Shown here piece after piece: positions 2,131 to 22,525 of a stretch of 23,676 bases of DNA. Numbering within the stretch: position 1 is the first letter of the stretch; every line of letters begins with the position of its first letter. The notes beneath the pieces were generated by a model, which did not search any database, was not told where the DNA came from, and worked only from the letters and a program-made list of their open reading frames with translations. Source of the DNA: an uncultured Pelagibacteraceae bacterium (lineage in GTDB: Bacteria > Pseudomonadota > Alphaproteobacteria > Pelagibacterales > Pelagibacteraceae); the NCBI GenBank assembly GCA_902566925.1, contig CACFKO010000012.1, forward strand, positions 1 to 23,676. Direction: 5' to 3'. The position numbers were made by a program, and so were the translations under genes.

Positions 2131-2787
2131 ATGAAATTAAGTGAACAGACTATTGCCTTATTGAAAAACTTTTCTGGAATAAACCAGAATATTCAATTTA
2201 GGGCTGGTAATAAAATACAAAGTATTTCTGCACAAAAGAATATTCTTGTGTCTGCAGAAGTACCAGAGTCATTTCCAAGTGACTTTGCAATTTATGATTT
2301 GAACAAACTTCTTGGAGTGATGTCTCTGTTTCAAGATCCAGATTTAGAAATTGGAGACAAGACCATGAAGATTGGCGGAAAGGTAGATTATATGTTTGCC
2401 GATCCAGCAATGATCGTTTCACCACCAGAGAAAGATCTGGCTTTTCCAGATCCAGAAGTTTCCTTTACTTTGAGTAAGGGTGATTTTTCTCAAGTAACGA
2501 AGGCGGCTGCTGTTCTTGGTCTTCCTCATATTTGTGTGGAAGGTAAAGATGGTAAATTAAATCTTGTTGCCACAGATGTCAACAATTCATCTTCGGATGA
2601 GTTTAAAACTGAGCTTGGTGAAACGAGTAATACTTTCAATATGATTTTCAAGATAGAAAATCTTAAATTATTTTCTGGTGATTACAATGTCGAGATTACT
2701 TCAAAGGGTATCTCAAAATTTTCCCATACTTCCACTAACCTTCAATATTTTATCGCAACTGAATCTGATTCAACATTTGGAGGCTAA
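2131..2787 (+). CDS. 45: Sliding clamp, DNA polymerase processivity factor gp45
   Basis: The 218-residue product aligns with T4 gp45 from its first residue (MKLSEQTIALLKNF against T4 MKLSKDTTALLKNF). It also keeps AIYDLNKLLGVMSLF, the ADPAMIVSPP region and a C-terminal YFIATESDST like T4 VVALEADST. gp45 forms a trimeric ring that tethers the polymerase to DNA and in T4 also activates late transcription. I chose the ATG at 2131 because it matches the T4 start and sits 6 bases after GGAG. The ATG at 2119 would add four residues without a ribosome binding site. The gene has its own strong promoter and its stop overlaps the gp44 start (TAATG). Confidence 0.95.
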   Translation: MKLSEQTIALLKNFSGINQNIQFRAGNKIQSISAQKNILVSAEVPESFPSDFAIYDLNKLLGVMSLFQDPDLEIGDKTMKIGGKVDYMFADPAMIVSPPEKDLAFPDPEVSFTLSKGDFSQVTKAAAVLGLPHICVEGKDGKLNLVATDVNNSSSDEFKTELGETSNTFNMIFKIENLKLFSGDYNVEITSKGISKFSHTSTNLQYFIATESDSTFGG

Positions 2788-3731
2788 TGCAACGAGATGA
2801 TTTTTTGTGGGTAGAAAAATATCGCCCACACAGAATTAGTGATTGTGTCCTGCCCAGTGATCTTCAAGAGCCTTTCTCTGAATATGTAGAGCAAGGTAAA
2901 GTTCCAAACTTAATTTTAACTGGTGGCCCTGGCAGTGGTAAGACTACTGTTGCTAGAGCTCTTTGTGAAGAAGTCGGTCTTGACTATTTGATGGTCAATG
3001 GTTCCGATGAGGGTAGAAACATAGATACTGTAAGAACTACTTTAACTCAATTTTGTAGTTCGGTTTCTATGACTGGCAAACGTAAAGCCATCATAATGGA
3101 CGAGGCCGACTACATGAATCCAGATTCCGTCCAACCAGCATTGAGAGGTTTCATTGAACGATTTGGAAATAATGTCTCTTTTATTTTTACTTGTAATTAT
3201 CGTAGTCGTATTATTGATCCCATCCATTCCCGTTGTGCTGTCTTTGATTTTGTAATTCCAAATAATGAGAAACCAAAGATCGCTGAGAACTATCTTAAAC
3301 TTTGTGAAGGTATTCTTAAAATTGAAAATGTAAAGTTTGAACGTAAAGTTTTGATAGAACTCATTATGAAATACTTTCCAGATTTTCGGAGAGTACTGAA
3401 TGAGTTACAAAGATATTCTGTTTCGGGTGTAATTGATACTGGCATACTCACTAATCTAAATGAAGTTAATCTTACAGAACTTGTCGGTGGCTTGAAAGGT
3501 AAAAAGTTTTCTGAGGTTCGTAAGTGGGTAAACCAGAACATGGATCAAGATACTGCGAAGCTGTTTCGTAAGTTATATGATAATTTCAATCAACATCTTA
3601 AACCTCAGTCTGTTCCTCAGGCTGTGTTAATCATTGCTGACTACCAGTATAAGTCGGCATTCGTGGCAGACCAAGAAATCAATATGGTGGCTTGTCTGAC
3701 CGAAATTATGGTCGAGTGTGAATTCAAATAG
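2787..3731 (+). CDS. 44: Clamp loader large subunit gp44 (AAA+ ATPase)
   Basis: A 314-residue AAA+ ATPase of the clamp-loader class. It has Walker A (GGPGSGKTT, residues 46-54), Walker B (IIMDEADYM, with DEAD at 105-108), sensor-1-like FIFTCNYRSRI (132-142) and the SRC motif (148-150) that contacts DNA and the neighbouring subunit. A helical C-terminal collar domain follows. The length and the opening VEKYRPHRISD are typical of gp44/RFC small subunits. It works with gp62 to open and load the gp45 ring. It is translationally coupled to gp45. Its usual downstream neighbour gp62 is displaced about 4.4 kb by the cassette at 3736-8095. Confidence 0.95.
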   Translation: MQRDDFLWVEKYRPHRISDCVLPSDLQEPFSEYVEQGKVPNLILTGGPGSGKTTVARALCEEVGLDYLMVNGSDEGRNIDTVRTTLTQFCSSVSMTGKRKAIIMDEADYMNPDSVQPALRGFIERFGNNVSFIFTCNYRSRIIDPIHSRCAVFDFVIPNNEKPKIAENYLKLCEGILKIENVKFERKVLIELIMKYFPDFRRVLNELQRYSVSGVIDTGILTNLNEVNLTELVGGLKGKKFSEVRKWVNQNMDQDTAKLFRKLYDNFNQHLKPQSVPQAVLIIADYQYKSAFVADQEINMVACLTEIMVECEFK

Positions 3732-3735
3732 GCAC

Positions 3736-3763
3736 TTGACAAATCGTATATATATGGTATACT
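3736..3763 (+). promoter_or_regulatory. Sigma70-type promoter of the modification cassette
   Basis: TTGACA (3736-3741), a 16-base spacer ending in the extended TGG, and TATACT (3758-3763). It starts four bases after the gp44 stop. Transcription would begin near 3770, leaving a leader of about 118 bases before the ATG at 3888. Confidence 0.8.
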
Positions 3764-3790
3764 GTTAGTATAAACAATAGTTAAGGTAGC

Positions 3791-3818
3791 GGGAACAAGA
3801 ACAATTCTGTTCACTCCC
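3791..3818 (+). promoter_or_regulatory. Stem-loop in the leader of the modification cassette
   Basis: GAACA (3799-3803) pairs with TGTTC (3808-3812) around the loop ATTC. An outer GGGA/TCCC pairing (3791-3794 with 3815-3818) flanks a small internal loop. It lies in the transcribed leader just before a short upstream ORF. There is no T-run after it, so it is more likely a leader structure than a terminator. Confidence 0.45.
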
Positions 3819-3829
3819 ATATTGTAGAA

Positions 3830-3895
3830 ATGGCCGAAACCATGACTACTTTGTATCTTAACACCGCCCCGAAAGCGAAAGGTAACTATGGCTGA
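3830..3895 (+). CDS. Possible leader peptide, 21 aa, upstream of the DUF262-HNH gene
   Basis: ATG at 3830 opens a 21-residue frame (MAETMTTLYLNTAPKAKG, then NYG) ending at a TGA at 3893-3895, which overlaps the start region of the next gene (ATG at 3888). Its position between a hairpin and the cassette's first gene would suit translational coupling or attenuation. There is no clear Shine-Dalgarno sequence before it, and the frame is short enough to be chance. Confidence 0.3.
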   Translation: MAETMTTLYLNTAPKAKGNYG

Positions 3896-5282
3896 GAAAC
3901 AGCACAAAACAGAACTGTTTGAATTATATACTCAAGAAATTCGAGAGTTCCTAAAAGAATACATTCATATTGACTGCCAGCCGGTCGGTCAAAGACTTCC
4001 AGTTAGTTCCCAAAACAATTCAAAAGAAGCTGGTATCATTCAGAGTATATTCGATGGAGAGTCCATTGGAATGATAACTCTAATGATAATTGACAGTAAA
4101 GCAAATCGAAAACAACGCCGTGATTTTATGCGGACTTTTGAAAAAGAGTCCGTTGATGGTGGTCATCGTAAACGTGCGATATATGCGTACTATACTGGTG
4201 AATTCAAAGTGGACGGCAAATACTACAATGATTTGTCTAAAGAAGAACAAGAGAAGTTTCTTGAATTTCCATTGTCGTTTACTTGTTATACGAGCATGGA
4301 CAATGACAGAAAAGGTCGCATCTTTCGTAACCTTAACAAGACTACTGATGTCAATTTCATTGAGATGTTAAATTCTTATGGTGATATCACAATAGCGAAC
4401 TATGTACGAGAAAAGGTTCGGTTCGTTGACCAAATTAACAATGCGTATCATGAATTGTTTAATTTTCACTATACACCAAGTAAAGAAGTAGTTTATGAAT
4501 ATCTTAGCTTTGACAATGATCGTTTGAAGCAAGATCATCTATTTGCCCGTATCGTACATCGTTATGTTAAGTTTCCAGATCAACTTCTTGGTGGGTCATC
4601 AGATGATCAATTAGAGACAATGTATAAAGAAGAAGATCTTAACATAGATCCAAAAACCAATACCAAGATTGATCGTCATCTGGACTTTCTCAGAATGATG
4701 GCGGATATGTCCAAGAATTATAATAAGAGGGGATTGACCCTACATGATTTTAAAATCTTGAGTGCTCTTCATCTTTATCTTGTAGATACTTACAAGGTTT
4801 TCAATGTCAAAGATGCTCTAAACCTTTTTAAAACTTATTCAACAGCGGATGTGGAATTGAAAAAAGGTACAGACAAAAATGGTAAGTATTCAAAAGATGT
4901 TCATAAAGCTTCTGGATATGCTGTCAATCTCATGTACACAAGATATATCAATGCTCCTCAACATGAAACCAAGACTGCAGAAGCTTTTAGTTATCTGTTA
5001 AGAGAAATGGGTGATGTTGAAAAGTTTCTTGATATTAAAGATCCTGTTAAAAGTTTCTCATTTAGTCAAAGACAAGCAAAACTCGCAGAACAAGGTTATG
5101 TTTGTGCAATTGATGGTAAAGATTTGACGATGGAAGAAGCACATGCTGCTCACATCGTGGCCCACTCCAAAGGTGGAAAAACTGTCTATAGTAACCTCGC
5201 CATGGTTCGAGCTTGTTACAATATAGACATGGGCACCATGAACTTAAATGAGTACAAAGAAACTTTACCGAAAGCTGCTTAA
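3888..5282 (+). CDS. DUF262-HNH protein, GmrSD-like nuclease candidate
   Basis: The 464-residue product has two recognisable parts. The N-terminal part resembles DUF262: IIQSIFDGESIGMITLMII (about 50-68), then DGGHRKRAIYAYYTGEF (90-106), equivalent to the family's DGQQR motif, then RIFRNLNKTTDVNFIEML as in other DUF262 proteins. The C-terminus (from about Cys406) is an HNH nuclease-like module with HIVAHSKGGKT (His422, His426), SNLAMV (Asn436) and CYN (Cys443, Asn445). DUF262 with a nuclease domain is the architecture of GmrSD-type enzymes that cut modified DNA. Whether this one cuts unmodified host DNA, rival phages or a homing site is open. AAAGG precedes the ATG. Its stop overlaps the next start (TAATG), so it heads a four-gene operon. 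Confidence 0.75.
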   Translation: MAEKQHKTELFELYTQEIREFLKEYIHIDCQPVGQRLPVSSQNNSKEAGIIQSIFDGESIGMITLMIIDSKANRKQRRDFMRTFEKESVDGGHRKRAIYAYYTGEFKVDGKYYNDLSKEEQEKFLEFPLSFTCYTSMDNDRKGRIFRNLNKTTDVNFIEMLNSYGDITIANYVREKVRFVDQINNAYHELFNFHYTPSKEVVYEYLSFDNDRLKQDHLFARIVHRYVKFPDQLLGGSSDDQLETMYKEEDLNIDPKTNTKIDRHLDFLRMMADMSKNYNKRGLTLHDFKILSALHLYLVDTYKVFNVKDALNLFKTYSTADVELKKGTDKNGKYSKDVHKASGYAVNLMYTRYINAPQHETKTAEAFSYLLREMGDVEKFLDIKDPVKSFSFSQRQAKLAEQGYVCAIDGKDLTMEEAHAAHIVAHSKGGKTVYSNLAMVRACYNIDMGTMNLNEYKETLPKAA

Positions 5283-6127
5283 TGATTGATACTTTATTAT
5301 GTGATTCTATTGATAATCAAATACCAGCTGAAACCTGTGCAGTGCTGTTGAGTGGGGGTGTAGACTCCCTCTCAGTGGCTCTTGCCGCACACAATGTTGG
5401 TAAGAAGGTTGTGGCCTATAGTTTTCATCTTGAAGGAAACGAATCTTATGATTTCAAAACTGCTCAAAAGTTTTCTGAGCAAATGGGCTGGACATTCAAA
5501 CCAACAATAGTTCCTACAGATAATCTAGAACAAGATTGGCACACACTTGTCAAGATGGGTTGTAAAAAGAAAACTCATTTTGAATGTGTGTTTCCATTTC
5601 TATATGTCTATCCAAATATTACCGAAGAGTATATCCTAACTGGCTGGGGTGCCGATGGTTATTTTGGTGTAAGTAAAAAAGCTCAGATGAGATATGGTAG
5701 TGAAAAGGGTAAGAAAAGATATCATGAATATTTTAAAAAAAATCCACAAAACATCAAAACATTTGATGAAGCCAGAGACATATATTTTTTACCAGATAAC
5801 TCAGCAGGACTCAAATGGCACAATAAACTTGTGGAAAAATATAACAAAAAACATATAACACCATATCTAGATCCTAAAGTTAAAGATTATTTTTATCAAT
5901 TCAATTGGGAAGAATTAAACAAGCCAGAACAGAAACATCATGTTAGAACTGCATTTCCAGAAATTCAAAATTTTGGAAAAATAAAAAAGCACACCAACCT
6001 ACATCTTGGGGCGGGCGTGGATAAGCTATTTGAATCCTTGCTAAATAATAGTAAGATCAACTTTAATGGAAGAAAACGAATGATGGATGTTTCAAAAGAT
6101 TGGTATGAAAAGGAGTTTGAAAAATGA
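5282..6127 (+). CDS. Asparagine-synthetase-like PP-loop ATP pyrophosphatase
   Basis: A 281-residue protein with the PP-loop SGGVDS (residues 24-29), which binds ATP pyrophosphate. GWGADGYFG (121-129) matches the second signature of the asparagine synthase C-terminal domain (usually GxGxDExFxGY). ITPYLDPKVKDYF near 193-205 resembles that family's RxPfLD segment. The family adenylates a carboxylate and then transfers an amine to it. The N-terminal glutaminase domain of AsnB is absent, so ammonia or another amine would have to be supplied. It is coupled on both sides (TAATG before, ATGA after) to the nuclease and methyltransferase genes, so a nucleic-acid carboxylate substrate is plausible. That is inference. 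QueC- or TilS-like activities are less likely because those hallmarks are not visible. Confidence 0.75.
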   Translation: MIDTLLCDSIDNQIPAETCAVLLSGGVDSLSVALAAHNVGKKVVAYSFHLEGNESYDFKTAQKFSEQMGWTFKPTIVPTDNLEQDWHTLVKMGCKKKTHFECVFPFLYVYPNITEEYILTGWGADGYFGVSKKAQMRYGSEKGKKRYHEYFKKNPQNIKTFDEARDIYFLPDNSAGLKWHNKLVEKYNKKHITPYLDPKVKDYFYQFNWEELNKPEQKHHVRTAFPEIQNFGKIKKHTNLHLGAGVDKLFESLLNNSKINFNGRKRMMDVSKDWYEKEFEK

Positions 6128-7410
6128 AAACAGAAGGCGCAGTTTTATCTTGGTTTGAAGACACTGATTTTTCTCATGTTAAAAAACCAAATGTTAAAAA
6201 CTACAAAGGGACAGCAACAGCTTCAGCAACATTATCTGAAGATTATGTTAAGGATGTAAAAGATGCAGAACCCATTTCTGCAGACTACCAGAAGTATACA
6301 CTACAAGATGTTTACGATGGTGAAGCACAAAACAAGTTCAATGTAATATCTACTTTTGCTGGTGGCGGTGGTTCTTCTACAGGATATCGTTTGGCTGGTG
6401 GTAAGATTTTATGTATCAATGAATTTGTAGAAGAGGCTAGAAATACTTATCATGAAAATTATCCAAACACTCCAATACTTCCAGATGACATAAAAGAACT
6501 TGAAGGAAAACACTTGTTGGAGGCTGCAAATATTGGAGCTGGAGAAGTTGATATCCTAGATGGTTCACCGCCATGTTCTGCTTTCTCTATGGCTGGTTCT
6601 GTAGTACAGGGTGGTGGTCATGGTGTTGGGTTTGGTAAAACTAAAAATTATTCTGATGGTAAAAAGGTAGAAAATATTGAAGATTTATTTTTTGAGTTCA
6701 TTAGAGTTGCGAAAGATATTCAACCTAAAGTCATTGTTGGTGAAAATGTGTCAGGATTGTTAATGGGTGAAGCAAAAAATTATTATTGGAGAATTACAAA
6801 TGCATTTGAAAATATTGGTTACAATGTATCATCAATGTTATTAGATGCATCTCATTATGGAGTACCACAAACAAGAAAGAGAGTTATTTTTATTGCAGTT
6901 CGTGAAGATGTAGCTGATGCGATTGGCCTTACTGCTCTTAACATTGCTAGTATATTTCCAGAAAAGAATAGTGAAGTTGTTACTTGTGGAAATGCATTTA
7001 CCGATTTAGAGTATGATAATAAAGAAATTGACCATTTACTAGAAAGATTCACACACGGCCGTCATTATGAAACTGCAGAAAAAATGCCACTTGATCCTAA
7101 GAAAGTATTAACTGGTTGTGATTATCATCCAAAAGGGCATCACTTTAATATGAAAAGAATTTCAAGATTCAAACCATCTCCTACCATCACAGCTTCTGGT
7201 GGTTGTATTCATTGGACAGAATTACGAAGACTTGCATTATGTGAAACTCGTAGAATAATGTCTTTACCAGAAGATTTCAAACTAACTGGTAAATGGGAGC
7301 AAAAATCTGAACGCATGGGAAGAATGGTGCCACCATTGATGATGAAAGCGATAGCAGATTCAATATACAAGAAAGTACTGAAACCCTATAAGGAGTTGAA
7401 CAATGGCTGA
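6124..7410 (+). CDS. DNA cytosine-C5 methyltransferase with an altered motif X
   Basis: A 428-residue protein carrying the ordered motifs of C5-cytosine methyltransferases: motif I FAGGGGSSTG (78-87), motif IV DGSPPCSAFS with catalytic Cys151, motif VI ENV (207-209), motif VIII QTRKRVIFIA (249-258) and motif IX PSPTITASGG (351-360). Motif X is present but reads ERMGRMVPPLMMKAIADSI (396-414). The near-invariant Asn of GN(S/A)VPP is Arg400 here. That position lies at the cofactor pocket, and the engineered N374K change in M.MpeI, as I recall, allows use of carboxy-SAM. The first 70 residues are an extra N-terminal segment. It overlaps the CmoA-like gene by 8 bases. A plain 5-methylcytosine enzyme remains possible. 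Confidence 0.9.
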   Translation: MKTEGAVLSWFEDTDFSHVKKPNVKNYKGTATASATLSEDYVKDVKDAEPISADYQKYTLQDVYDGEAQNKFNVISTFAGGGGSSTGYRLAGGKILCINEFVEEARNTYHENYPNTPILPDDIKELEGKHLLEAANIGAGEVDILDGSPPCSAFSMAGSVVQGGGHGVGFGKTKNYSDGKKVENIEDLFFEFIRVAKDIQPKVIVGENVSGLLMGEAKNYYWRITNAFENIGYNVSSMLLDASHYGVPQTRKRVIFIAVREDVADAIGLTALNIASIFPEKNSEVVTCGNAFTDLEYDNKEIDHLLERFTHGRHYETAEKMPLDPKKVLTGCDYHPKGHHFNMKRISRFKPSPTITASGGCIHWTELRRLALCETRRIMSLPEDFKLTGKWEQKSERMGRMVPPLMMKAIADSIYKKVLKPYKELNNG

Positions 7411-8095
7411 TTTTACTTTCGCTCATAGAGAAGAGGGATTTGATAATCATATAGAAAAATCAATTCGTGGTTATTCCACCTTGCTTGAAGATACCATCAA
7501 CCTCTCTCGTTATTTTGTAGAGGATAACACTTACATAGTTGATATTGGTTGTTCTACTGGAAAATTGACAAAGGCTATGATGTTATACAATGAGGATCAT
7601 TCTCCAACGGCATATTACATGGGAGTTGAGATTGCTGATGGTTTCAAACAAGATTTAGAAGATCGTGAAAAAGAACTTAGAGATCTTAAATACTACAATG
7701 TAGAATTTATAATGCAAGATATTCGTGATTTTGAGTTTGAGAATGTCAACCTCGTTACTTCTATTTTTACTTTACAGTTCATGCCAAAGAAAGATAGAAA
7801 AGAAGTTATTTCTAACATTTATGAGGGATTGAATGAAGGCGGGGGGTTTATCTTCGCAGAAAAAACAATATGTGAGAGTGCTATAGTACAAGATATGATA
7901 ACTTTTAATTACTATGATTACAAGCGAAAATCATTTGAAGCAGAAGATATCATGGACAAAGAACAAACACTCAGAAATATTATGAAACCCATGACATGGA
8001 AAGATATTGAAAATATGGTAACTAATGCTGGATTTGGTACAGTTCAACCATTTTGGAGAAATCATGCATTTGTTGGTGCAATAGCTATAAAGTAA
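7403..8095 (+). CDS. CmoA-like SAM-dependent enzyme, candidate carboxy-SAM synthase
   Basis: A 230-residue class I SAM-binding protein that follows CmoA along its length. It has FDNHIEKSIRGYSTL (13-27; CmoA has a matching SVPGYSNI), motif I VDIGCSTG (46-53; CmoA YDLGCSLG), DIRDFEFENV (106-115), FTLQF (122-126, identical), IYEGLNEGGGFIFAEK (139-154), DYKR (172-175) and a C-terminal AGF..PFWR..FVGAIAIK. CmoA converts SAM and prephenate to carboxy-SAM for tRNA wobble uridine modification. One caution is that the CmoA Arg of the QKR.MLENVM helix aligns with Glu187 here, while an Arg appears one helical turn later (Arg191). The 8-base overlap with the DNA methyltransferase suggests it supplies that enzyme's cofactor. 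RBS AAGGAG lies at 7389-7394. Confidence 0.75.
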   Translation: MADFTFAHREEGFDNHIEKSIRGYSTLLEDTINLSRYFVEDNTYIVDIGCSTGKLTKAMMLYNEDHSPTAYYMGVEIADGFKQDLEDREKELRDLKYYNVEFIMQDIRDFEFENVNLVTSIFTLQFMPKKDRKEVISNIYEGLNEGGGFIFAEKTICESAIVQDMITFNYYDYKRKSFEAEDIMDKEQTLRNIMKPMTWKDIENMVTNAGFGTVQPFWRNHAFVGAIAIK

Positions 8096-8096
8096 C

Positions 8097-8124
8097 TTGA
8101 CAAAACACTTTAACATGGTATAAT
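8097..8124 (+). promoter_or_regulatory. Sigma70-type promoter for gp62-regA-dUTPase
   Basis: TTGACA (8097-8102), a 16-base spacer ending ATGG (extended -10) and TATAAT (8119-8124). It starts one base after the stop of the CmoA-like gene. The expected +1, seven bases past the -10, is 8131, which is the A of the gp62 ATG. Confidence 0.85.
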
Positions 8125-8130
8125 AGTATT

Positions 8131-8559
8131 ATGAGTCCATTTGATTATCTAAAAGCAATTAATGAAACCAAAGAGGATGTAATGCTCACTTCTCAAGATG
8201 AGAAGAAGTATTCACCCTTTATTGTGAATCGTGGGCTGTCATTTTTCATGGATACTATATTTCAAGTAAATGAAATGAATCAAAACCACCACCTTGATTC
8301 CAGACTTCAGTTTGACTATCTTATAAATAATATAAGAAAGAAACGAAGGTATAGTAAGTGGCTGAAACCTGAGAAACTACAGAATGTTGAATTGGTGAAA
8401 GAGTATTATGGATTTAGTTATGAGAAGGCTAAGGATGCTCTAAGGATACTATCTGAGGATCAGTTGGCTTATATCATAGATAAACTAGATCAAGGTGGAG
8501 TGGAAAATGACAATAGGAACCGAAAACATGGTGGAATGCACTCTGGAAAATCCAGATGA
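8131..8559 (+). CDS. 62: Clamp loader small subunit gp62
   Basis: The 142-residue product matches the gp62 proteins of marine T4-like phages in pattern: it opens MSPFDYLKAINETK, followed by YSPFIVNRGLSFFMDTIFQVNEMN, a FDYLINNIRKKRRYSKW core, and YYGFSYEKAKDALRILS. T4 gp62 shows the corresponding NYLM..VPRGKRYGKW stretch. It forms the clamp loader with gp44. It directly precedes regA, as in T4, which supports the call. There is no Shine-Dalgarno sequence, and the ATG coincides with the predicted transcription start, so a leaderless message is likely. The C-terminal 32 bases overlap regA in another frame. Confidence 0.85.
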   Translation: MSPFDYLKAINETKEDVMLTSQDEKKYSPFIVNRGLSFFMDTIFQVNEMNQNHHLDSRLQFDYLINNIRKKRRYSKWLKPEKLQNVELVKEYYGFSYEKAKDALRILSEDQLAYIIDKLDQGGVENDNRNRKHGGMHSGKSR

Positions 8560-11976: not shown

Positions 11977-14442
11977 ATGTTCTATACTAATGTACAGCCT
12001 CACGGAAATTTCATTGCTCTGAGAGGTGTCAATGATCGTGGTGAATCATTCAAGAAAAAAGTAAATTATGAACCTACTTTATTTGTAGAGTCTCATAAAC
12101 CTCAAAATCCTCAGTGGAAAACTTTGAGGGGTAAGAATGTTGCTGGTGTGAAGTGGGGATCGATGAAAGAAACCAAAGAAGCTATCAGACAATATGGGGG
12201 TGATGTCTATGGTCTTGATCAGTTTCAATATTCATATATTTCTGATAATTATCCTGGCATGGTTGATTACGATCTTTCCAAGATAAAGATTGCATTTATT
12301 GACATTGAATGTAGTTCAGAGTTTGGATTTCCAAATATAAGAGAAGCCAACGAAGAAGTTCTCGCCATCTCTATTAAGATGGGTTCTGACTTCAAAACTT
12401 ATGCTTGTGGTGAATACAATCCACCATCTCATGTTAGATACATTAAATGTATCAATGAAGAACATTTGTTGACCGAGTTCATCAATGATTGGGCCTCGAA
12501 TTTTCCAGATATTGTTACAGGGTGGAATTCACGTTTCTTTGATATTCCATATCTTGTAAATCGTATCATTCGTGTTCTTGGTGAGAAGGCAGCTAATAAA
12601 TTGTCGCCTTGGGGTTGGTTCAGAGAAACAGAGGTAACTCTTGTTGGTAATCGAAAACAACAAGTGTATGATCTTATAGGTATATCCAGTATTGACTATC
12701 TTGATGCATACAAAAAATTTACCTATATCAATCGGGAATCGTATTCTCTTAATCATATTGCTTATGCAGAGTTGGGTGAGAAGAAGCTAGACTATGCAGA
12801 GGCATCATCTCTTCATGATTTGTACAAGACAAACTTTCAGAGATATCTTGACTACAATGTACATGATGTAGTTTTGGTTGAAAGACTTGAAGAAAAGATG
12901 AAACTCTTGGAGATGATCATCTCACTAGCATACATGGCCAAGTGTAACTTCAATGATGTATTCAGTCCTGTTAAAATGTGGGATTGTATCATTTACAATC
13001 ATTTGAAAGATCAACAAATTGTAGTTCCACCAAAGAAACATGAAACCAAATCGGAAGCATACGAGGGTGCGTATGTCAAAGATCCAAATATTGGTAGACA
13101 CAAGTGGGTTGCTAGTTTTGATTTGAATTCTCTGTATCCGCATCTGATAATGCAATATAATATTTCGCCCGAGACTCTTGTAAGTATGTTTCCTGAGTCT
13201 GGATTGGTTGAGCCTCTTCTCAATCGTGAAGTAGATACTGCGTTTCTTAACGAAAAGAATTTGACAATGACGCCTAATGGTTCATTGTATACTCGTAAGA
13301 AACAAGGTTTTCTTCCTGCCCTGATGGAGAAGATGTATACCGATAGGGTCAAATATAAAAAGATGATGATTGAGGAACAGAAGAAAGGTAAATCTGCAGA
13401 TACCAATAAATTGGCACAGTATCACAATATGCAGATCAATTTGAAAATCGCTCTTAACTCAGCCTACGGAGCCCTTGGTAATCAATGGTTTCGATTTTAT
13501 GATGTACGGAATGCTGAGGCCGTATCAGTTGCGGGTCAACTTTCTATTCGATGGGCTGAGAGAGCGGTTAATCAATACTTAAATAAAGTTTTAGAAACAG
13601 ATGGAACAGACTACGTTATTGCTTCCGATACTGACTCTTTGTATGTTACTTTGGATTCTCTTGTACAGAGGGTAGGTATTACAGACACAGACAAAACTAT
13701 CAATTTCATGGACTCAGTTTGTGATGGTAAAATTCAAGATGTGATAGACAAGTGTTATAGTGAGTTGGCAGAATATGTCAATGCATTTCAACAAAAGATG
13801 GTAATGAAAAGAGAGGTCTTGGCAGATGTTGGTATTTGGGTTGCCAAAAAACATTATGTTCTGAATGTTCACAATTCTGAAGGTGTTCCTTATGATGAAC
13901 CTAAATTGAAGATTATGGGTATTGAAGCTGTCAAGAGTTCTACACCAGAACCTTGTCGTAATGCTCTCAAAGAAGCATTCAAGATTATGATGAATGGAAC
14001 TGAAGATGATGTTATCAATTATATTGAAGACTTTAAGACTACGTTCAAGACTCTTCCTGCAGAAGAAGTTTCCTTTCCAAGATCGGTAAAGGGTCTTTCT
14101 AAATATTATGATGCTGCTTCAATCTATCAAAAGTCTACACCAATTCATGTTAAGGGTTCGCTGATCTACAACAAAATTTTACAGAACAAAAGATTGACAA
14201 GAAAGTATCCAAAAATTCAAGAAGGTGAAAAGATTAAGTTTGCCTATCTGAAAGAACCAAATCCAACTGGTGACACTGTAATTGCTATGTTAAATGCTTT
14301 ACCAGATGAGTTTGAATTAAAACCTTACATAGATTATGAGAAACAATTTTCAAAAGCTTTCCTTGATCCAATAATCGGTATTCTTAATGTTATTGGTTGG
14401 GAACATGAAAGAAAAACTAATATCATGGAGTTCTTCAAATGA
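11977..14442 (+). CDS. 43: DNA polymerase gp43, family B
   Basis: The 821-residue product has an N-terminal exonuclease domain with Exo I IDIECSSEFGFPN (108-120). Its polymerase domain keeps motif A SFDLNSLYPHLIMQY (380-394, catalytic Asp382), motif B LKIALNSAYGALGNQ (489-503) and motif C ASDTDSLYV (549-557, Asp551 and Asp553). It is shorter than T4 gp43 (898 residues), as in marine T4-like phages, and appears complete with no intein, intron or split. The ATG lacks a Shine-Dalgarno sequence, which might make it easy to control. RegA, gp45, gp44 and gp62 in the same window are its usual partners. It overlaps the next ATG by four bases (ATGA). Confidence 0.97.
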   Translation: MFYTNVQPHGNFIALRGVNDRGESFKKKVNYEPTLFVESHKPQNPQWKTLRGKNVAGVKWGSMKETKEAIRQYGGDVYGLDQFQYSYISDNYPGMVDYDLSKIKIAFIDIECSSEFGFPNIREANEEVLAISIKMGSDFKTYACGEYNPPSHVRYIKCINEEHLLTEFINDWASNFPDIVTGWNSRFFDIPYLVNRIIRVLGEKAANKLSPWGWFRETEVTLVGNRKQQVYDLIGISSIDYLDAYKKFTYINRESYSLNHIAYAELGEKKLDYAEASSLHDLYKTNFQRYLDYNVHDVVLVERLEEKMKLLEMIISLAYMAKCNFNDVFSPVKMWDCIIYNHLKDQQIVVPPKKHETKSEAYEGAYVKDPNIGRHKWVASFDLNSLYPHLIMQYNISPETLVSMFPESGLVEPLLNREVDTAFLNEKNLTMTPNGSLYTRKKQGFLPALMEKMYTDRVKYKKMMIEEQKKGKSADTNKLAQYHNMQINLKIALNSAYGALGNQWFRFYDVRNAEAVSVAGQLSIRWAERAVNQYLNKVLETDGTDYVIASDTDSLYVTLDSLVQRVGITDTDKTINFMDSVCDGKIQDVIDKCYSELAEYVNAFQQKMVMKREVLADVGIWVAKKHYVLNVHNSEGVPYDEPKLKIMGIEAVKSSTPEPCRNALKEAFKIMMNGTEDDVINYIEDFKTTFKTLPAEEVSFPRSVKGLSKYYDAASIYQKSTPIHVKGSLIYNKILQNKRLTRKYPKIQEGEKIKFAYLKEPNPTGDTVIAMLNALPDEFELKPYIDYEKQFSKAFLDPIIGILNVIGWEHERKTNIMEFFK

Positions 14443-15065
14443 CAATAGAAACAATTTTTGGTTATCCTGTAATGTTACTTACTCTGGATTTTGATCTAGA
14501 AAAACTAACAGATTTTGCCCACGATGAACAAAGTAATGATTCAGAGGGTCTTCAACATACAAATCTGGGTGGATGGCATAGTAAAGTACTTGTAGATGAT
14601 GAAATAGATAATACAGAATTTGATAAGTTGAAAAGGACAATAGGAGAACACTTAGATGTATATCATTCAGAGTTTTTCAAAGACACAACATTTACACATA
14701 ATGTCAAATCTCTTGTTTCTAATATGTGGTTAAATATTAATGATAAAGGTCATGGAAACGCGTTGCATCATCATCCAGACGGAATGTTTTCGGGTACTTT
14801 TTACATAAAACATGACAATACTCCTAAAAACGGAGATCTCGTATTTCAAAACCCTCTAGATTCAAAGTTAGACTATATTTTACGTTCCCATCATTTACAT
14901 CGCGGTAATGTCAAAGAATATGGTCATGTAATTTCAAAAGAAATTCGTGTTCTACCAGAAGAGAATATGTTAATATATTTTCCCGCATGGCTATTTCATT
15001 GGGTTGATATGAATTTAAGTGATAATCAAAGGATATCATTATCTTTTGATACTGTAATACTCTAA
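14439..15065 (+). CDS. 2OG-Fe(II) oxygenase-like protein (paralogue 2 of 7)
   Basis: The 208-residue product has the clearest classical layout of the set: NMWLNINDKGHGNALHHHPDG with the HxH pair His110/His112, a SGTFYIKHD strand, GDLVFQNP, and then LIYFPAWLFHWVDMN with the distal His187. NQRISLSFDTVIL follows, with Arg198 for 2-oxoglutarate. It begins TIFGYPVMLLTLDFD, as in other phage and bacterial members of this putative 2OG oxygenase family. It overlaps the polymerase stop by four bases and ends two bases before the next promoter. The substrate is unknown. Confidence 0.85.
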   Translation: MTIETIFGYPVMLLTLDFDLEKLTDFAHDEQSNDSEGLQHTNLGGWHSKVLVDDEIDNTEFDKLKRTIGEHLDVYHSEFFKDTTFTHNVKSLVSNMWLNINDKGHGNALHHHPDGMFSGTFYIKHDNTPKNGDLVFQNPLDSKLDYILRSHHLHRGNVKEYGHVISKEIRVLPEENMLIYFPAWLFHWVDMNLSDNQRISLSFDTVIL

Positions 15066-16343: not shown

Positions 16344-16829
16344 ATGAGAGTTCCAAATAAGGTATTTAAGACCAGAGAAAATGATGAATGGGTAGATAAA
16401 ACTACTAAAGATTATTTTTTCGGTAAAAGGGTATTGTTACTTTCGTTGCCTGGTGCATTTACACCTATATGAACCAAGCAACATCTTCCAAGGTTGGAAG
16501 AACTTTACGATGAAATTATTGCAAAAGGTATAGACGATATTTACTGTATGTGTGTCAATGATGCATTTGTCATGAACGCATGGGGTAAAGAATTAGGTAT
16601 AGAAAAAGTTAAACTGATTCCCGATGGTGATGGTAAATTTACTGAAGGGATGGATATGTTAGTACATAAACCAGCTCAGGGTTTTGGTTATAGGAGTTGG
16701 AGATATGCTATGACTGTAAAAGATGGAGAAGTTGAAAAGATGTGGGTTGAAGAAGGTAAAAACCAGTTAGGTCTGGATGATGACCCATACAAGCGAACAT
16801 CTCCGTTGAGGATTTTAGGAGATCTATAA
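16344..16829 (+). CDS. Selenocysteine-containing peroxiredoxin (Prx5/AhpC-TSA type), TGA recoded
   Basis: Read through one internal TGA, the 161-residue product is a full Prx5-type peroxiredoxin. [12 protein letters not shown] (31-42) leads to the TGA at codon 43 (16470-16472), then [13 protein letters not shown]. In Cys-type relatives the motif is PGAFTPxC(S/T), so TGA sits exactly on the peroxidatic Cys. The frame then keeps [13 protein letters not shown] (70-82), [12 protein letters not shown] (94-105) and [24 protein letters not shown], with the conserved active-site Arg region. TGA is an ordinary stop for other genes here, so general recoding is excluded. AAGGA precedes the ATG. A nonsense-mutated relic is the alternative. 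Peroxiredoxins reduce peroxides, and Cys68 or Cys70 could act as resolving residues. Confidence 0.82.
16470..16501 (+). promoter_or_regulatory. UGA codon with bacterial SECIS-like hairpin
   Basis: After TGA (16470-16472) come 11 bases, then TCTTCCA (16484-16490) paired with TGGAAGA (16495-16501) around the loop AGGT. In E. coli fdhF the SECIS hairpin also begins 11 bases after UGA and has an AGGU-containing loop whose G and U bind SelB. The match in spacing, stem and loop is close. The stem also encodes protein. Confidence 0.75.
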
Positions 16830-17542
16830 TGGAAATGGGTGAAAATTGGCATGTGAATGCCCCTTGGGCACAGCTAGTTGTAAGTACTGAAGTACCAAAA
16901 AAGTGTTTTCAGGCTGCTTTAAAATTAACTGACGAAATTTTTGCTGATGAAAATCGGGATAGTGCAGGTGATGGACTGGCGGGACAAATCAGTAATGAAT
17001 ATTTTCTTCCACAAGAAAAACTCATTGAAACTGGATTGTTGGAATACTTTCATCAGATGGTTACTAAGTATTGGCAGACAGTTCTAACAAATGGAAATAT
17101 GTGGCAGTATTGTGACAGAAAGTTTGAAAACGGGCCACATGGATTTGATTATGCATGTAAGATTGTAAGTGCTTGGACTGTTCATCAATTTGAAAATGAA
17201 TATAATCCAATACACAATCATTCTAATTGTAAAGTCTCAGCAGTAATGCATCTAAAATTTCCAGAAAAGATTGATCCACCAGTAAAAGATCATACTGGTG
17301 GACTTGATGGAAATTTAATATTTACTGGTATGGGTGATGCAGATGAATGGTGTACTTCTCCTGTAATGAATTGTAATGCAGCAACTGTTGGATGGTTACA
17401 TATCTTTCCAGCTTCATTGGGTCACTCAGTTTATCCATTCAAGGGTAAAGGTGAACGTAGAAGTTTATCCTTCAATGCAGACATTATTTCTAAAAAACAA
17501 ATGGATGCAATTATTGAACAAGAAACAAGGGAGATGAATTAA
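16829..17542 (+). CDS. 2OG-Fe(II) oxygenase-like protein (paralogue 3 of 7)
   Basis: The 237-residue product opens with the NWHVNAPWAQL block (6-16) shared by the tandem copies and has a helical middle. The core is NPIHNHSNCKVSAVMHLKFP with HxH at His129/His131, NLIFTGMGD (162-170), and GWLHIFPASLGHSVYPF with the distal His199. GERRSLSFNADI follows (Arg210/Arg211, candidate 2-oxoglutarate ligand). Its TAATG overlap with the peroxiredoxin gene couples the two. It keeps an extra cysteine-containing loop (DEWCTSPVMNC) absent from the next two copies. The substrate is unknown. Confidence 0.82.
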   Translation: MEMGENWHVNAPWAQLVVSTEVPKKCFQAALKLTDEIFADENRDSAGDGLAGQISNEYFLPQEKLIETGLLEYFHQMVTKYWQTVLTNGNMWQYCDRKFENGPHGFDYACKIVSAWTVHQFENEYNPIHNHSNCKVSAVMHLKFPEKIDPPVKDHTGGLDGNLIFTGMGDADEWCTSPVMNCNAATVGWLHIFPASLGHSVYPFKGKGERRSLSFNADIISKKQMDAIIEQETREMN

Positions 17543-17543
17543 T

Positions 17544-18275
17544 ATGAGACTTGGTGAAAATTGGTATGTTCATGCTCCTTGGGCACAGTTAGTTTGTTGT
17601 ACAGAAATACCCGAAGATAAATTAATAAAATTTATGGCAGTGAGTAATGAAGTATTGGATGAGGCAGAAGCTTCTGATGATAATTTTGGAGATGGAGTGA
17701 TACCCCTGCCATGGACAGTTACAGATGAAAAACTCATTAAATATGATGTAAGAACTTACATTATGGAAATGGTATCGGTCTATATGGAAACTATTTTATC
17801 TAATGGTAATGTTCAGAGTAATTTGGATCAAATACTTCCTGGCGGCCCACATACACAATGGCATACAAGACTTGTCGATGCATGGGTTGTGAGTCAAAAA
17901 GAAGGTGACTACATTCCAGTTCATACTCATCATAATCAAAAAGAATCTTGTAAAATTTCTGGTGTTCTTTATCTAAAAGTTCCAGAACAAGTTGAAAGTT
18001 CAAGTAAAAATTTGGCAATAAAAGGCGGTAAAGATGGTCAAATAGTTTTTACTGGTATGGGTGGGGCTGATCCATTTTCAACTACAGTACAATTTAATGT
18101 TCCACCAGAAGTTGGTTGGTTGTATTTGTTTCCAAGCACACTCAATCATCAAGTTTACCCATTCAAAGGTGAGGGTGAAAGAAGAGGTATATCTTTCAAT
18201 GTCGATGTAATTTCAAAAGAACAATTAAAATTATTTGAAGGGATAACACAAGAGGTGCCAAATGAAACTGAGTGA
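17544..18275 (+). CDS. 2OG-Fe(II) oxygenase-like protein (paralogue 4 of 7)
   Basis: The 243-residue product begins RLGENWYVHAPWAQL and has HxH at His127/His129 in IPVHTHHNQKESCKISGVLYLK. GQIVFTGMGGADPF (165-178), [17 protein letters not shown] with distal His202, and GERRGISFNVD follow. It is closest to the next copy, sharing the GGPHTQWH block, the TxxxDAWVVSQK-type strand and the DPFxTT segment, which points to a fairly recent tandem duplication. It starts one base after the stop of paralogue 3 and overlaps paralogue 5 by 14 bases. Confidence 0.82.
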   Translation: MRLGENWYVHAPWAQLVCCTEIPEDKLIKFMAVSNEVLDEAEASDDNFGDGVIPLPWTVTDEKLIKYDVRTYIMEMVSVYMETILSNGNVQSNLDQILPGGPHTQWHTRLVDAWVVSQKEGDYIPVHTHHNQKESCKISGVLYLKVPEQVESSSKNLAIKGGKDGQIVFTGMGGADPFSTTVQFNVPPEVGWLYLFPSTLNHQVYPFKGEGERRGISFNVDVISKEQLKLFEGITQEVPNETE

Positions 18276-18963
18276 TAACTGGTATGTAGATGCACCTTGG
18301 GCACAGTTGTTATGTAGTACAAAAATACCAGACGATAAAGTTGAAAATTTCATTGCAGTAACTGATGAAGTATTGAATGAGTCAGATGGATTGGGTACTA
18401 AAGAAGTAGTGCCTTCTTCATGGGTAATTTCTACAGAAAAATTTCAAAAACATGGTGTTCTTGAGTTTCTTATGCAAATGATAGACAACTACATGATTAC
18501 CATCCTCTCAAATGGAAATGTCAAGCAGCACATGGATAGTGCTGTTGCTGGTGGGCCACATACACAATGGCACTCAAGAATAGTTCATGCATGGGTAGTT
18601 AGTCAAAAACAAAATGACTATCTTCCAACTCATGCCCACAGTCAACTAGAAGGTGAACATCAATGTTCTAAAATTTCTGCTGTGATGTATCTGAAGATTC
18701 CCCCACAAATGGAACGTAAACCAGATGAAGCATCTATAAAAATGGGAAAAGATGGTCAAATATCCTTTACTGGAATGGGAGATGCTGATCCATTTCAAAC
18801 TACTTCTCTGTATAATATTATACCAGAAGTTGGTTGGTTATATCTATTTCCTAGTACACTTAATCACATGGTTTATCCATTTATAGGTGATGGTGAACGT
18901 AGAGGTATAGCCTTTAATGCTGATTTTATGTCTAAAGAACAACTGGAAAAAATGAAAAGGTAA
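18262..18963 (+). CDS. 2OG-Fe(II) oxygenase-like protein (paralogue 5 of 7)
   Basis: The 233-residue product begins [15 protein letters not shown] and shares [20 protein letters not shown] with paralogue 4. HxH is His124/His126 in [17 protein letters not shown], where the loop is a few residues longer than in paralogue 4. [17 protein letters not shown] (distal His202) and [12 protein letters not shown] follow. It ends four bases before the uvsX ATG, which sits at the far end of the tandem array. The function is unknown. Closely related copies with differing loops after HxH suggest different substrates. Confidence 0.82.
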
Positions 18964-18967
18964 AATT

Positions 18968-20023
18968 ATGAGTGATTATTTTGACGAATTGATAGGGGTA
19001 ACTGGAAACCAATATGCATCCAAAGTTTCTGATGGGATGCTGGGGAGCGTAAATGAATACATTGATACAGGGAGTTATATACTTAATGCACTTATTTCGG
19101 GAAGCATTCACAAAGGGTTACCATCAAATAAAATCACTGCTTTCGCAGGAGAGTCGGCTACGGGCAAGACTTTCTTCTTACTGGGGCTTGTCAGACAGTT
19201 TCTTTCAGATAACCCTAGCGGTGGTGTTCTTTACTTTGAATCTGAGTCAGCGCTGACTCCCGAAATGGTGGAAGAAAGAGATATCGACACAAAAAGATTC
19301 ATCCAGTTACCAGTTTCTACTATACAAGAATTTGCACAACAAGCATCTAGAGTAGTGGACAAACATATAGAAAAGGGAGATGGGGCACCTCTTCTTCTCT
19401 GTCTTGACAGTCTTGGAATGTTATCTACAGCCAAAGAAGTTGGAGATGTGACTGAGGGTGCAGACAAAGTTGACATGACTAAGGCAAGAATTGTCAAAGG
19501 TGCATTCAGGGTCTTGACTCTCAAACTGGCCAAAGCAGGTATTCCATTATTGGTTACCAATCACACTTACAAACAAGTTGGAACAATGTTTCCACAAGAT
19601 GTGATGGGCGGTGGTTCTGGTTTACAGTATGCAGCATCTAATATTGTGTTTCTATCCAAGAAAAAAGAAAAAGATGGTACTGATGTAATTGGTAATATCA
19701 TTCATTGTAAAAACTTTAAGTCGAGACTCGCAAAAGAAAACAAAAAAGTCGATGTACTTCTAAGTTATGATGAGGGTCTTAATCGTTATTATGGACTACT
19801 TGAATTGGCAGAGAAGTATGAAATTTTTAAGAAAGTATCTACAAGATATGAATTACCAGATGGTTCCAAACTTTATGGTAAACAGATCTTGAATGATCCA
19901 GAAAAATATTTCACCGAAGATATTATGAATAAACTAGATGAAGCCGCTGATAGAGAATTCTCCTATGGTGGTGGATCTAATGATTCCGAAGAAGAATTAG
20001 AAACAGGAGAACAAAATGGCTGA
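18968..20023 (+). CDS. uvsX: UvsX, RecA-like recombinase
   Basis: The 351-residue product has the RecA-type ATPase core. Walker A is GESATGKT (61-68), the strand [12 protein letters not shown] (86-97) follows, Walker B is [11 protein letters not shown] with Asp147, and [13 protein letters not shown] lies near 208-220. [12 protein letters not shown] corresponds to the DNA-binding loop region. The opening and length are as in UvsX of T4-like phages, with an acidic C-terminal tail ([13 protein letters not shown]). It forms filaments on single-stranded DNA for recombination-driven replication and repair. No strong Shine-Dalgarno sequence precedes the ATG. It overlaps the next oxygenase-like gene by eight bases. 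Confidence 0.95.
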
Positions 20024-20801
20024 AGAACAGTACGAAACTGAGGTTGCTTTCTATAACAGATATCATCATGGAGCCACGGCCAACATGAGGCCAGGTTTGG
20101 TTGATCAGATGAATGAAATTATAGACAACCTTTATGAAACTCGTTTTGAGGAATTATATCATCAAAATGCTTATAGAGAAGTTACTGGAAAACAATTAAG
20201 TATGCCAAAATCTGAATTACCAGAAGAAATGCATCATTTCATTATGCAAATGTCTAGAGGATATATAATGAATTCTGGTTTACATCACATGGATGTAGAT
20301 TGGCAAAATATTCCATTAGAAATAGACAAAATATGGACTACTGATTCTAAAGAAAATGACTATATTGCTAATCATAGTCATTTTGGATTAGTTGCTGGTG
20401 TATTTTATTTAAAGATTCCACCAATAGTTTCTGAATTTAACGATGAGGGTAAATTTTACATTCACCATGACGAACCTGGCTTTACCGATATAAATCCACT
20501 TTCAAGTATCAGACCTAAAGGTGCTGATATGATTATTCCAAAAGAAGGAATGTTTACAATATTTCCTTCTTGGTTGAAACATTCGGTATCTCCTTTTTGG
20601 GGGCCTGGGATTAGAAGAGCAGTATCTTTTAATGTGATATGTCCAGAAAAAGAGAAACACAAATATACAGTAGTCGAGGCTGAAAGAGAGATGATAGGAA
20701 AGCGACGTAAAGTTGAAGAAGTATTAAAAATAGATACTGAGGGTGGGCCTGACGCTAAAGTTCAAGGTGTTACTGATTTACATGGAGTGGCGAATGCCTG
20801 A
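20016..20801 (+). CDS. 2OG-Fe(II) oxygenase-like protein (paralogue 6 of 7)
   Basis: A 261-residue divergent member. The N-terminal 90 residues do not resemble the other copies. The core has [24 protein letters not shown] with HxH at His120/His122, [17 protein letters not shown] with distal His189, and [11 protein letters not shown] with Arg200. A C-terminal charged extension of about 50 residues follows ([16 protein letters not shown], then [11 protein letters not shown]). It lies between uvsX and the small protein gene before gp41, overlapping both. Its placement inside the recombination-helicase block is notable, but a DNA substrate is not shown. Confidence 0.78.
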
Positions 20802-21168: not shown

Positions 21169-22525
21169 GGATTATGCAAGAAAAGTATTACCATTTTTAA
21201 GTGATGAATATTTTACTGAAAGATCCGATAAAATTGTATTCAATCAGATAAATAATTTTATACTAAAATACAATTCTCTTCCAAACAAAGAAGCTCTTAA
21301 CATTGAGTTAGGTGAAGAAAAAATCACAGAGGAAGATTATAGAGAATCTATAAACCTTATTAATGAAATTGGTAGAGAAGTAGAAGAATTCTCAGACCTC
21401 TCATGGTTGTTGGATTCAACCGAAAAATTCTGTCAAGATAAGGCGATCTATAATGCAGTCGTGGAATCGATCTCAATACTCGACAATCCAAAATCAACAA
21501 CAGACAAGGGGGCTATTCCAGACATACTTAGTGATGCCCTTGCGGTCAGCTTTGATCCTCATGTTGGTCATGATTATATCGATGATAGTGCTGATAGATT
21601 TGATTTTTATCACCGCGTTGAAGAAAGGATACCATTTGATCTCGACTACTTTAACAGAATTACAAAAGGTGGTCTTCCGCAAAAAACCCTAAACATCTGT
21701 CTTGCTGGTACTGGTGTAGGTAAGTCTCTATTCATGTGCCATGTTGCTTCTTCCTGTCTTGCCCAGAATCAAAATGTTCTTTATATTACATTGGAAATGG
21801 CAGAAGAGAAAATTGCAGAGAGAATTGATGCAAATTTGCTGGATATTGCAGTAGATGATCTTCACAGTTTGCCACAAGATCTTTATGATAAAAAAATAAA
21901 TAATTTAAGTAAGACTACAAAGGGTAAACTTATAATTAAAGAATATCCAACTGCATCTGCAAATGTCAATCATTTTCGTGCATTATTGAATGAATTGAAT
22001 CTCAAAAGATCTTTTGTTCCAGACATTATTTTTGTTGACTATTTGAATATATGTACATCTTCTAGAATAAAGACAGGATCAAATGTCAATTCTTACACAC
22101 TTATCAAATCTATTGCAGAGGAGCTACGCGGGCTCGCTGTTGAGAATAAAGTTCCTATTGTGTCTGCTACTCAGACCACTAGAAGTGGTTACTCAAATAC
22201 TGATGTTGGATTGGAAGATACTTCAGAATCTTTTGGCCTCCCTGCGACTGCGGATCTTATGTTTGCAATCATCAGTACGGAACAGATGGAAGAAGTTGGA
22301 CAAATTCTAGTCAAACAATTGAAAAATAGGTATAATGATCCTACTGTAAATCGTAAATTTGTTGTAGGTATTGATCGTTCAAAAATGAGATTATTTGATG
22401 TATCTCAGGCAGAACAAGATGAATTGGTAGATAGTGGACAAAAAGATGATGATACACCAGCTTTTGATGTAGCAACTGGTGGTAAATTTAAGAAAAGAGA
22501 TTTCACAGGATTTGATTATGAGTAA
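21125..22525 (+). CDS. 41: Replicative DNA helicase gp41 (DnaB-like)
   Basis: The 466-residue product aligns with T4 gp41 throughout. Its N-terminal part has YARKVLPFLSDEYF and AIPDILSDALAVSFDPHVGHDYIDD (T4: AIPDIMRQALSISFDSYVGHDWMDD). The RecA-like domain has Walker A AGTGVGKS (194-201), LYITLEMAEEKIAERIDANLLDI, Walker B IIFVDYLNIC and the ESFGLPATADLMFAI segment. It is the hexameric 5'-3' helicase that unwinds DNA at the fork and works with the primase. The start overlaps the previous gene by 44 bases. It is likely served by the promoter at 20980. It ends within the start of paralogue 7. Confidence 0.95.
   Translation: MKIETTILKNLLQNEDYARKVLPFLSDEYFTERSDKIVFNQINNFILKYNSLPNKEALNIELGEEKITEEDYRESINLINEIGREVEEFSDLSWLLDSTEKFCQDKAIYNAVVESISILDNPKSTTDKGAIPDILSDALAVSFDPHVGHDYIDDSADRFDFYHRVEERIPFDLDYFNRITKGGLPQKTLNICLAGTGVGKSLFMCHVASSCLAQNQNVLYITLEMAEEKIAERIDANLLDIAVDDLHSLPQDLYDKKINNLSKTTKGKLIIKEYPTASANVNHFRALLNELNLKRSFVPDIIFVDYLNICTSSRIKTGSNVNSYTLIKSIAEELRGLAVENKVPIVSATQTTRSGYSNTDVGLEDTSESFGLPATADLMFAIISTEQMEEVGQILVKQLKNRYNDPTVNRKFVVGIDRSKMRLFDVSQAEQDELVDSGQKDDDTPAFDVATGGKFKKRDFTGFDYE

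Follow-up and report, generated by a model that had tools for sequence, protein, structure and literature searches.

A phage cassette predicted to make 5-carboxymethylcytosine, with a candidate ParB/Srx-HNH nuclease as partner

What do four overlapping genes inside the clamp-loader block of a T4-like phage do together? The question is raised by positions 3888-8095 of contig CACFKO010000012.1, whose 23,676 nucleotides were analysed as a whole (hereafter the window). The window is apparently DNA of an uncultured T4-like phage, and comparison of the whole 23.7 kb with 50,697 phage records by megablast returned no match. The four genes, all on the + strand, encode a predicted ParB/Srx-fold sensor joined to an HNH nuclease domain, the putative amide ligase CmoY, the predicted DNA cytosine C5-carboxymethyltransferase CmoX and the predicted carboxy-S-adenosylmethionine (carboxy-SAM) synthase CmoA. 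We consider it likely that the cassette makes a 5-carboxymethylcytosine (5cxmC) base in the DNA of its own phage; the predicted nuclease joined to it may be self-sparing. The cytosines very probably bear a carboxymethyl group to which an amino acid is attached. This modification chemistry is already published, having been described in December 2025 for Synechococcus phage S-B43 (PMC12783734).

CmoX (6124-7410, 428 amino acids (aa)) matches the C5-methyltransferase profile PF00145 (E 2e-51), the NCBIfam dcm profile above its cut-off and PDB entry 8yf3 (E 5e-154). The structure in 8yf3 is that of SpCmoX, the S-B43 DNA cytosine C5-carboxymethyltransferase (Yang et al., Nat Commun December 2025, PMC12783734). 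According to the same source, SpCmoX makes 5cxmC at GC motifs and its Arg350 (Asn304 in HhaI) contacts the carboxylate; the wild-type enzyme takes carboxy-SAM only, the R350N variant takes neither SAM nor carboxy-SAM, and 5cxmC protects DNA from HhaI. Over 362 aa (residues 58-419) the window protein shares 65% identity with SpCmoX. Its catalytic Cys151 lies in an SPPC motif and its Arg400 (GRMVPP) occupies the HhaI-N304/SpCmoX-R350 position in motif X. The former column is Cys in 110/110 rows and the latter is Arg in 105 of the 106 rows that have it, four further rows being truncated. These rows are CmoX-like open reading frames (ORFs) of at least 100 aa in 121 loci plus the window, mostly from the best 80 of 381 loci nearest the window and with near-duplicates included, so that the figures describe conservation among near relatives. 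An N-terminal extension of ~54 aa is aligned in 26/109 other rows. The identity of an ordinary 5-methylcytosine (5mC) methyltransferase is rejected for this protein on account of the motif-X Arg and its likeness to SpCmoX.

The single non-Arg row, with Leu at this position, is the CmoX homolog of Methylophilales phage Melnitz (L003, 3995-5212). No cmoA or cmoY match occurs in that locus stretch, and the protein is probably not a carboxymethyltransferase. Tandem cmoX copies, each retaining SPPC and the Arg of motif X, were observed on one contig each at L057, L059, L061, L064, L070, L072, L077, L080, L082 and L083. In L057, L059, L061 and L064 the two copies are 25-28% alike in the target-recognition region versus 64-68% in the catalytic part. 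This divergence of the target-recognition regions suggests that one phage may have two carboxymethyltransferases that act on different DNA sites.

The last gene, cmoA (7403-8095, 230 aa), encodes a match to TIGR00740 (E 2.6e-32) and to the CmoA structures 4gek and 1im8 (~1e-23). The protein aligns over residues 3-230 with SpCmoA of S-B43 at 60-61% identity. SpCmoA has been assayed as a carboxy-SAM synthase, with a kcat above that of the E. coli enzyme (PMC12783734). Co-occurrence of CmoA-like and methyltransferase genes in other phages, which the initial annotation of this DNA had proposed to look for, was found: in the IMG/VR contigs holding these stretches cmoX is followed by cmoA, mostly with cmoY ahead. 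In S-CRM01 (L002, 5333-7170), cmoA-cmoX lies between gp62 and regA with no cmoY there, and a tblastn search of the S-CRM01 record with the window CmoY at E 1e-5 gave no match. Since cmoY was found neither at the locus nor in the record, S-CRM01 DNA may keep bare 5cxmC.

CmoY (5282-6127, 281 aa) carries the ATP-dependent PP-loop domain of asparagine synthetases (PF00733, E 3.5e-11), and a weak QueC match reflects the same PP-loop. A glutaminase domain was not found in the Pfam scan. CmoY is 46-48% identical to SpCmoY of S-B43, and the 49 positions that are near-invariant (at least 97%) over 68 full-length rows are all common to SpCmoY. The latter joins glycine to 5cxmC, and S-B43 virions contain the product, 5gcxmdC, in their DNA (PMC12783734). 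The lack of a glutaminase domain and the likeness to SpCmoY, a user of glycine, favour an amino-acid amide over 5-carbamoylmethylcytosine. Our best guess is an α-amino-acid amide, likeliest that of glycine. On these same grounds 5-carbamoylmethylcytosine, the product named first in the initial annotation, is disfavoured as the main product.

Among phages with CmoX ~80% or more alike, CmoY falls into classes 81-89% and ~49-61% identical to that of the window, so cmoY seems to be exchanged separately. A second PP-loop ligase of 339 aa lies directly ahead of cmoY in L022, L023 and L024 (full) and L018 (partial). Its role might be to cap the carboxylate that glycine ligation leaves free; alternatively, it might work with a different amine. 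In L031 (2-1327), an AsnB-like ligase (PF00733 plus GATase) stands directly ahead of cmoX, replacing the usual CmoY, and resembles the second ligase cluster described in PMC12783734.

On the proposed pathway, CmoA would convert SAM and prephenate to carboxy-SAM. CmoX would then carboxymethylate DNA cytosines at C5, with Arg400 holding the carboxylate, and CmoY would join an amino acid, most likely glycine, to 5cxmC as an amide. We infer these steps from the S-B43 homologs by homology and residue checks. The identities proposed initially (an AsnB-C-like PP-loop enzyme, a C5 methyltransferase and a CmoA-like protein) are borne out by the PF00733, PF00145 and TIGR00740/PDB matches. The proposed route from carboxy-SAM through C5 carboxymethylation to an amide likewise agrees with the S-B43 homologs, which are covered by enzyme assays, structure 8YF3 and virion liquid chromatography-mass spectrometry (PMC12783734), and the diagnostic residues are present; only its first-named product is disfavoured.

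What does the first gene (3888-5282, 464 aa) add to this pathway? Its predicted AlphaFold2 model (predicted local distance difference test score 86) has an N-terminal part that matches GmrSD-N/BrxU/SspE-like folds and a C-terminal part that matches HNH. Foldseek matches to the PDB are weak (best E 3e-3), the top solved structure being BrxU, and the HNH domain aligns best with Cas9-type HNH domains. The N-terminal two thirds form a conserved ParB/Srx (GmrSD-like) region. The QR, DG(G)HR and FxxxN motifs are kept in nearly all rows, and the HNH residues, which read AAHIVAH...N...N, are conserved, the catalytic H and N included. At the profile level, HNH_5 of Pfam is sub-threshold (17.9 bits versus a cut-off of 27.5), PHROGs gives HNH/endonuclease VII matches at the C-terminus (best E 3.5e-5), and a Pfam scan at E ≤ 0.01 found no DUF262, no DUF1524 (PF07510) and no ParBc (PF02195). 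The initial description as a DUF262-HNH protein holds at the level of the fold, with a GmrSD-like N-terminal part and an HNH domain, but not at that of the Pfam families. GmrS traits are present in part: the fold matches are weak to moderate and QR and FxxxN occur, while the pentapeptide is DGGHR instead of DGQQR. Given the missing PF07510 match and HNH residues other than the (E/D)HxxPQ motif of DUF1524 nucleases, the protein is not filed as a GmrSD member, although it may work alike. A sequence search of the PDB gave no match up to E 1. PADLOC gave weak matches only, the best being REase_II over the HNH domain, at 1.1e-5 with the window protein and 1.7e-7 with that of L032; the latter also matched NsnA (0.006). 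There are 330 homologs, and none of the 120 listed has a Pfam domain.

An alignment search of IMG/VR placed the nuclease in 43 loci, where a single-sequence search gave no match. A cassette gene is present in 21 of the 43, and cmoY lies directly 3' of the nuclease in 20/20 of those extending past it. Some of these contigs are closely related and several also belong to the CmoX set. The adjacency is kept despite differing cassette order and genome position, and all 18 loci with a nuclease at least 49% identical fall among the 21. The slot 5' of cmoY is variable, being occupied elsewhere by another ParB-fold protein, the second ligase, other genes or nothing; the nuclease occupies it in 8 of the 53 loci of the CmoX set where the start of cmoY could be placed. 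Searches of the 50,697 phage records by tblastn found no match for the window nuclease at E 1e-4 or for that of L032 at 1e-3. The only cultured phage matched by the distant nuclease of L101 is Synechococcus phage Sf-FS3 (21% identity), where the match sits next-but-one to a 2-oxoglutarate (2OG)-Fe(II) oxygenase gene. Bacterial and archaeal genomes gave 18 pattern matches, none of them confirmed.

The TAGT (Pfam name 'TET-Associated Glycosyltransferase') and carbamoyltransferase families modify DNA in phages. Both were found in contigs of the more distant nucleases, TAGT in 4/17 (0/50 random IMG/VR contigs) and carbamoyltransferase also in 4/17 (1/50 random). Either family is present in 7/17 contigs versus 1/50 (Fisher p ~1.5e-4), an enrichment inflated by kinship: grouping at 60% nuclease identity (L116 with L102, L121 alone) leaves about ten lineages, four with a match. 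The distant set comprises 17 of 22 contigs after five apparent near-duplicates were dropped, and amounts to 0.52 Mb versus 1.65 Mb of random contigs. TAGT adjoins the nuclease in L109 and is ~27 kb off in the L106 contig. Among 20 neighbour ORFs of distant nucleases, 4 are of modification type by Pfam (one TAGT, two carbamoyltransferases and one N6/N4-methyltransferase), the rest being other or none. The PF00145 C5-methyltransferase family gave no match in 21 of the 22 distant-nuclease loci (0/21), nor did the thymidylate-synthase family in the 17 contigs (0/17). Tet_JBP is also absent (0/21), which is uninformative as the controls have none either. In L102, a DAHP synthase gene (6688-7449) lies two ORFs 3' of the distant nuclease relative, in a contig stretch without cmoA; this enzyme catalyses the first step of the shikimate pathway, on the route to prephenate.

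We propose that the first gene encodes a nucleoside triphosphate-gated ParB/Srx-HNH nuclease that would distinguish the modified phage genome from any other DNA. Its ParB/Srx part would read the state of the DNA and its HNH part would cut what is not the phage's own, be it the host chromosome or a competing phage, while the modified base would spare the phage genome. This self-sparing direction is plausible but is advanced with reserve; the initial annotation had allowed for attack either on DNA lacking a modification or on DNA carrying one. T4 endonucleases II and IV follow a comparable scheme, in which host DNA is degraded and the modified phage cytosine is spared. The likeness lies in the logic (a phage nuclease plus modified own DNA) and is an analogy only, as the protein family and the base modification differ. 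More tentatively, hypermodified phages may carry an interchangeable ParB/Srx-sensor nuclease (HNH here, apparently GIY-YIG in related contigs) as a restriction-like partner. The modified base would then be both a shield against host enzymes and the self-mark by which unmodified host or rival DNA is singled out for destruction, and distant versions of the nuclease would accompany glycosyl- or carbamoyl-type hypermodification.

Several observations weigh against this account. The window CmoX is 73% identical to SpCmoX in the catalytic part and only 43% in the DNA-target region, so that GC specificity is not assured and the window enzyme may have another motif. CmoA falls under the NCBIfam cut-off of TIGR00740 (112.4 versus 193.3 bits) and is for this reason filed as a phage subtype with SpCmoA, not as the bacterial CmoA of the tRNA pathway. 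The carboxylate-binding Arg199 of E. coli CmoA (PMC4482062) corresponds to Glu187 in the window, although the active SpCmoA also has Glu there. This column is Glu in 86/86 rows that have it, with an Arg four residues on in 85/86 (Arg191 in the window); since SpCmoA is active, the phage subtype presumably uses the shifted Arg. CmoY shares less than half of its residues with SpCmoY, and other ligase clusters may use other amines (PMC12783734). As for the nuclease, 22 of its 43 loci, the more distant ones, have no cmo gene in the stretch examined (two, L116 and L121, end inside the nuclease), and 10 of the 17 scanned distant contigs have neither TAGT nor carbamoyltransferase. Most cassettes, those of S-B43 and S-CRM01 among them, lack the nuclease, which is thus not needed for modification. 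Nuclease alleles are also decoupled from those of CmoY: the nucleases of L016 and L049 are 88% alike, whereas their CmoYs belong to different classes (54% and 89% identical to that of the window). Co-evolution of nuclease and CmoY was looked for and was not seen.

How far do other explanations account for the same data? That CmoX is an ordinary 5mC methyltransferase next to a CmoA-like protein serving tRNA modification is hardly credible. Both proteins do come from large SAM-dependent families, but CmoX has Arg in place of Asn in motif X and closely resembles an enzyme restricted to carboxy-SAM (PMC12783734), and cmoX shares 8 bases with cmoA and remains linked to it across contigs. CmoY might use ammonia or a non-amino-acid amine and so yield 5-carbamoylmethylcytosine or another amide. 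Its PP-loop Asn_synthase domain would allow this, ligase clusters with a glutaminase domain or with different pockets are reported (PMC12783734), and L031 carries a glutaminase-bearing AsnB-like gene. However, the cluster of presumed amino-acid-using ligases that includes SpCmoY was drawn at ~30% identity (PMC12783734), below the value found here. With 49/49 near-invariant residues in common with SpCmoY and no glutaminase domain in its 281 aa, such a use of ammonia or another amine appears improbable.

Domains of the HNH and GIY-YIG types are typical of homing nucleases, and the first gene could be a selfish homing-type HNH gene that inserts beside cmoY and is unrelated to modification. Its patchy presence fits such a gene, as does a slot that holds various genes or nothing. 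In the window the slot gene also comes with a separate promoter-like site; inspection by eye shows one in L008 and L016 too, but none in L011. Yet the conserved ParB/Srx region with its QR, DGGHR and FxxxN motifs is not a homing-type DNA-binding part, the nuclease stays 5' of cmoY across cassette orders and genome positions, and distant relatives are located elsewhere, one of them beside TAGT (L109). We regard a homing origin as unlikely. Alternatively, with the modification genes working as described, the nuclease could be type IV-like, attacking foreign-modified DNA (for example 5-hydroxymethylcytosine or glucosylated DNA from competing phages) and ignoring plain and 5cxmC-amide DNA. The BrxU match points this way, as BrxU and GmrSD cut modified DNA (PMC10952713). 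That match is weak, however, and adjacency to the phage's own base-modification genes (other modification genes for some distant relatives) fits a self/non-self role at least as well, which leaves a type IV-like activity somewhat unlikely.

With the self-sparing nuclease as the preferred reading, the locus can be set beside known systems. It shares with the CmoA-CmoX-CmoY system of S-B43 (PMC12783734; PDB 8YF3) three homologous genes, the carboxy-SAM-selecting Arg, the SPPC Cys and a ligase without glutaminase domain. The order is nuclease-cmoY-cmoX-cmoA in the window, but cmoA-cmoY-cmoX in S-B43, where the genes lie elsewhere than in a clamp-loader block and without nuclease. The ParB/Srx-HNH gene and the N-terminal extension of CmoX are additions relative to S-B43. 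Like GmrSD/BrxU and SspE/DndI, the nuclease has a predicted ParB/Srx-fold N-terminal part (QR, DGxxR, FxxxN) followed by a His-Me/HNH nuclease. It differs from them in the lack of Pfam DUF262/DUF1524 matches, in DGGHR versus DGQQR and in an HNH part that aligns best with Cas9-type domains, and its gene lies in the base-modification operon of a phage, not in a defence island of the host. The ParBc (PF02195) proteins that phages encode near CmoX (PMC12783734) are likewise ParB/Srx-type genes in a CmoX neighbourhood, but the window protein lacks a PF02195 match and carries a nuclease domain. A term search of the main text of that paper found neither 'HNH' nor 'DUF262'. The ParB/Srx-HNH nuclease partner and its slot 5' of cmoY were not found in print in the open-access literature, subscription papers falling mostly outside the scope of the search.

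Neighbouring genes of the cassette overlap by 1, 4 and 8 bases, and the four overlapping genes behind a promoter-like site, as first annotated, were recovered. The site (3736-3763, +; TTGACA-16-TATACT with TG before the -10, consensus match 11/12) is directly 3' of the stop of the T4-like clamp-loader gene gp44 (2787-3731, +). A second site (8097-8124, +; 12/12) marks the downstream edge ahead of the other clamp-loader gene, gp62 (8131-8559, +); gp44 and gp62 were assigned by Pfam/PHROGs-type profile matches. Both are sites predicted by matching to a sigma70-type consensus. No other site in the region 3600-8250 matches better, and each of the two falls in a gap at one side of the cassette; in the region as a whole, 20 promoter-like sites versus 19.5 in shuffles indicate no excess. 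Replication genes surround the cassette, with gp45 (2119) and gp44 (2787) upstream and gp62 (8131), RegA (8495), dUTPase (8889) and DNA polymerase gp43 (11977) downstream. The window also holds five 2OG-FeII_Oxy_5 (PF13759) genes in 23.7 kb (1456-2079, 14439-15065, 16829-17542, 20016-20801 and 22479-23297), and two more stretches (17868-18215 and 18592-18903) resemble the first of them.

The window chiefly extends the known 5cxmC chemistry to an apparently uncultured T4-like phage. If the nuclease discriminates by base modification, it would form a restriction-modification pair with phage hypermodification, the latter giving protection and the pair being directed against the host and other phages. 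This would yield enzymes that read 5-carboxymethylcytosine-type bases, and would suggest a function for the ParB-like proteins reported beside CmoX.

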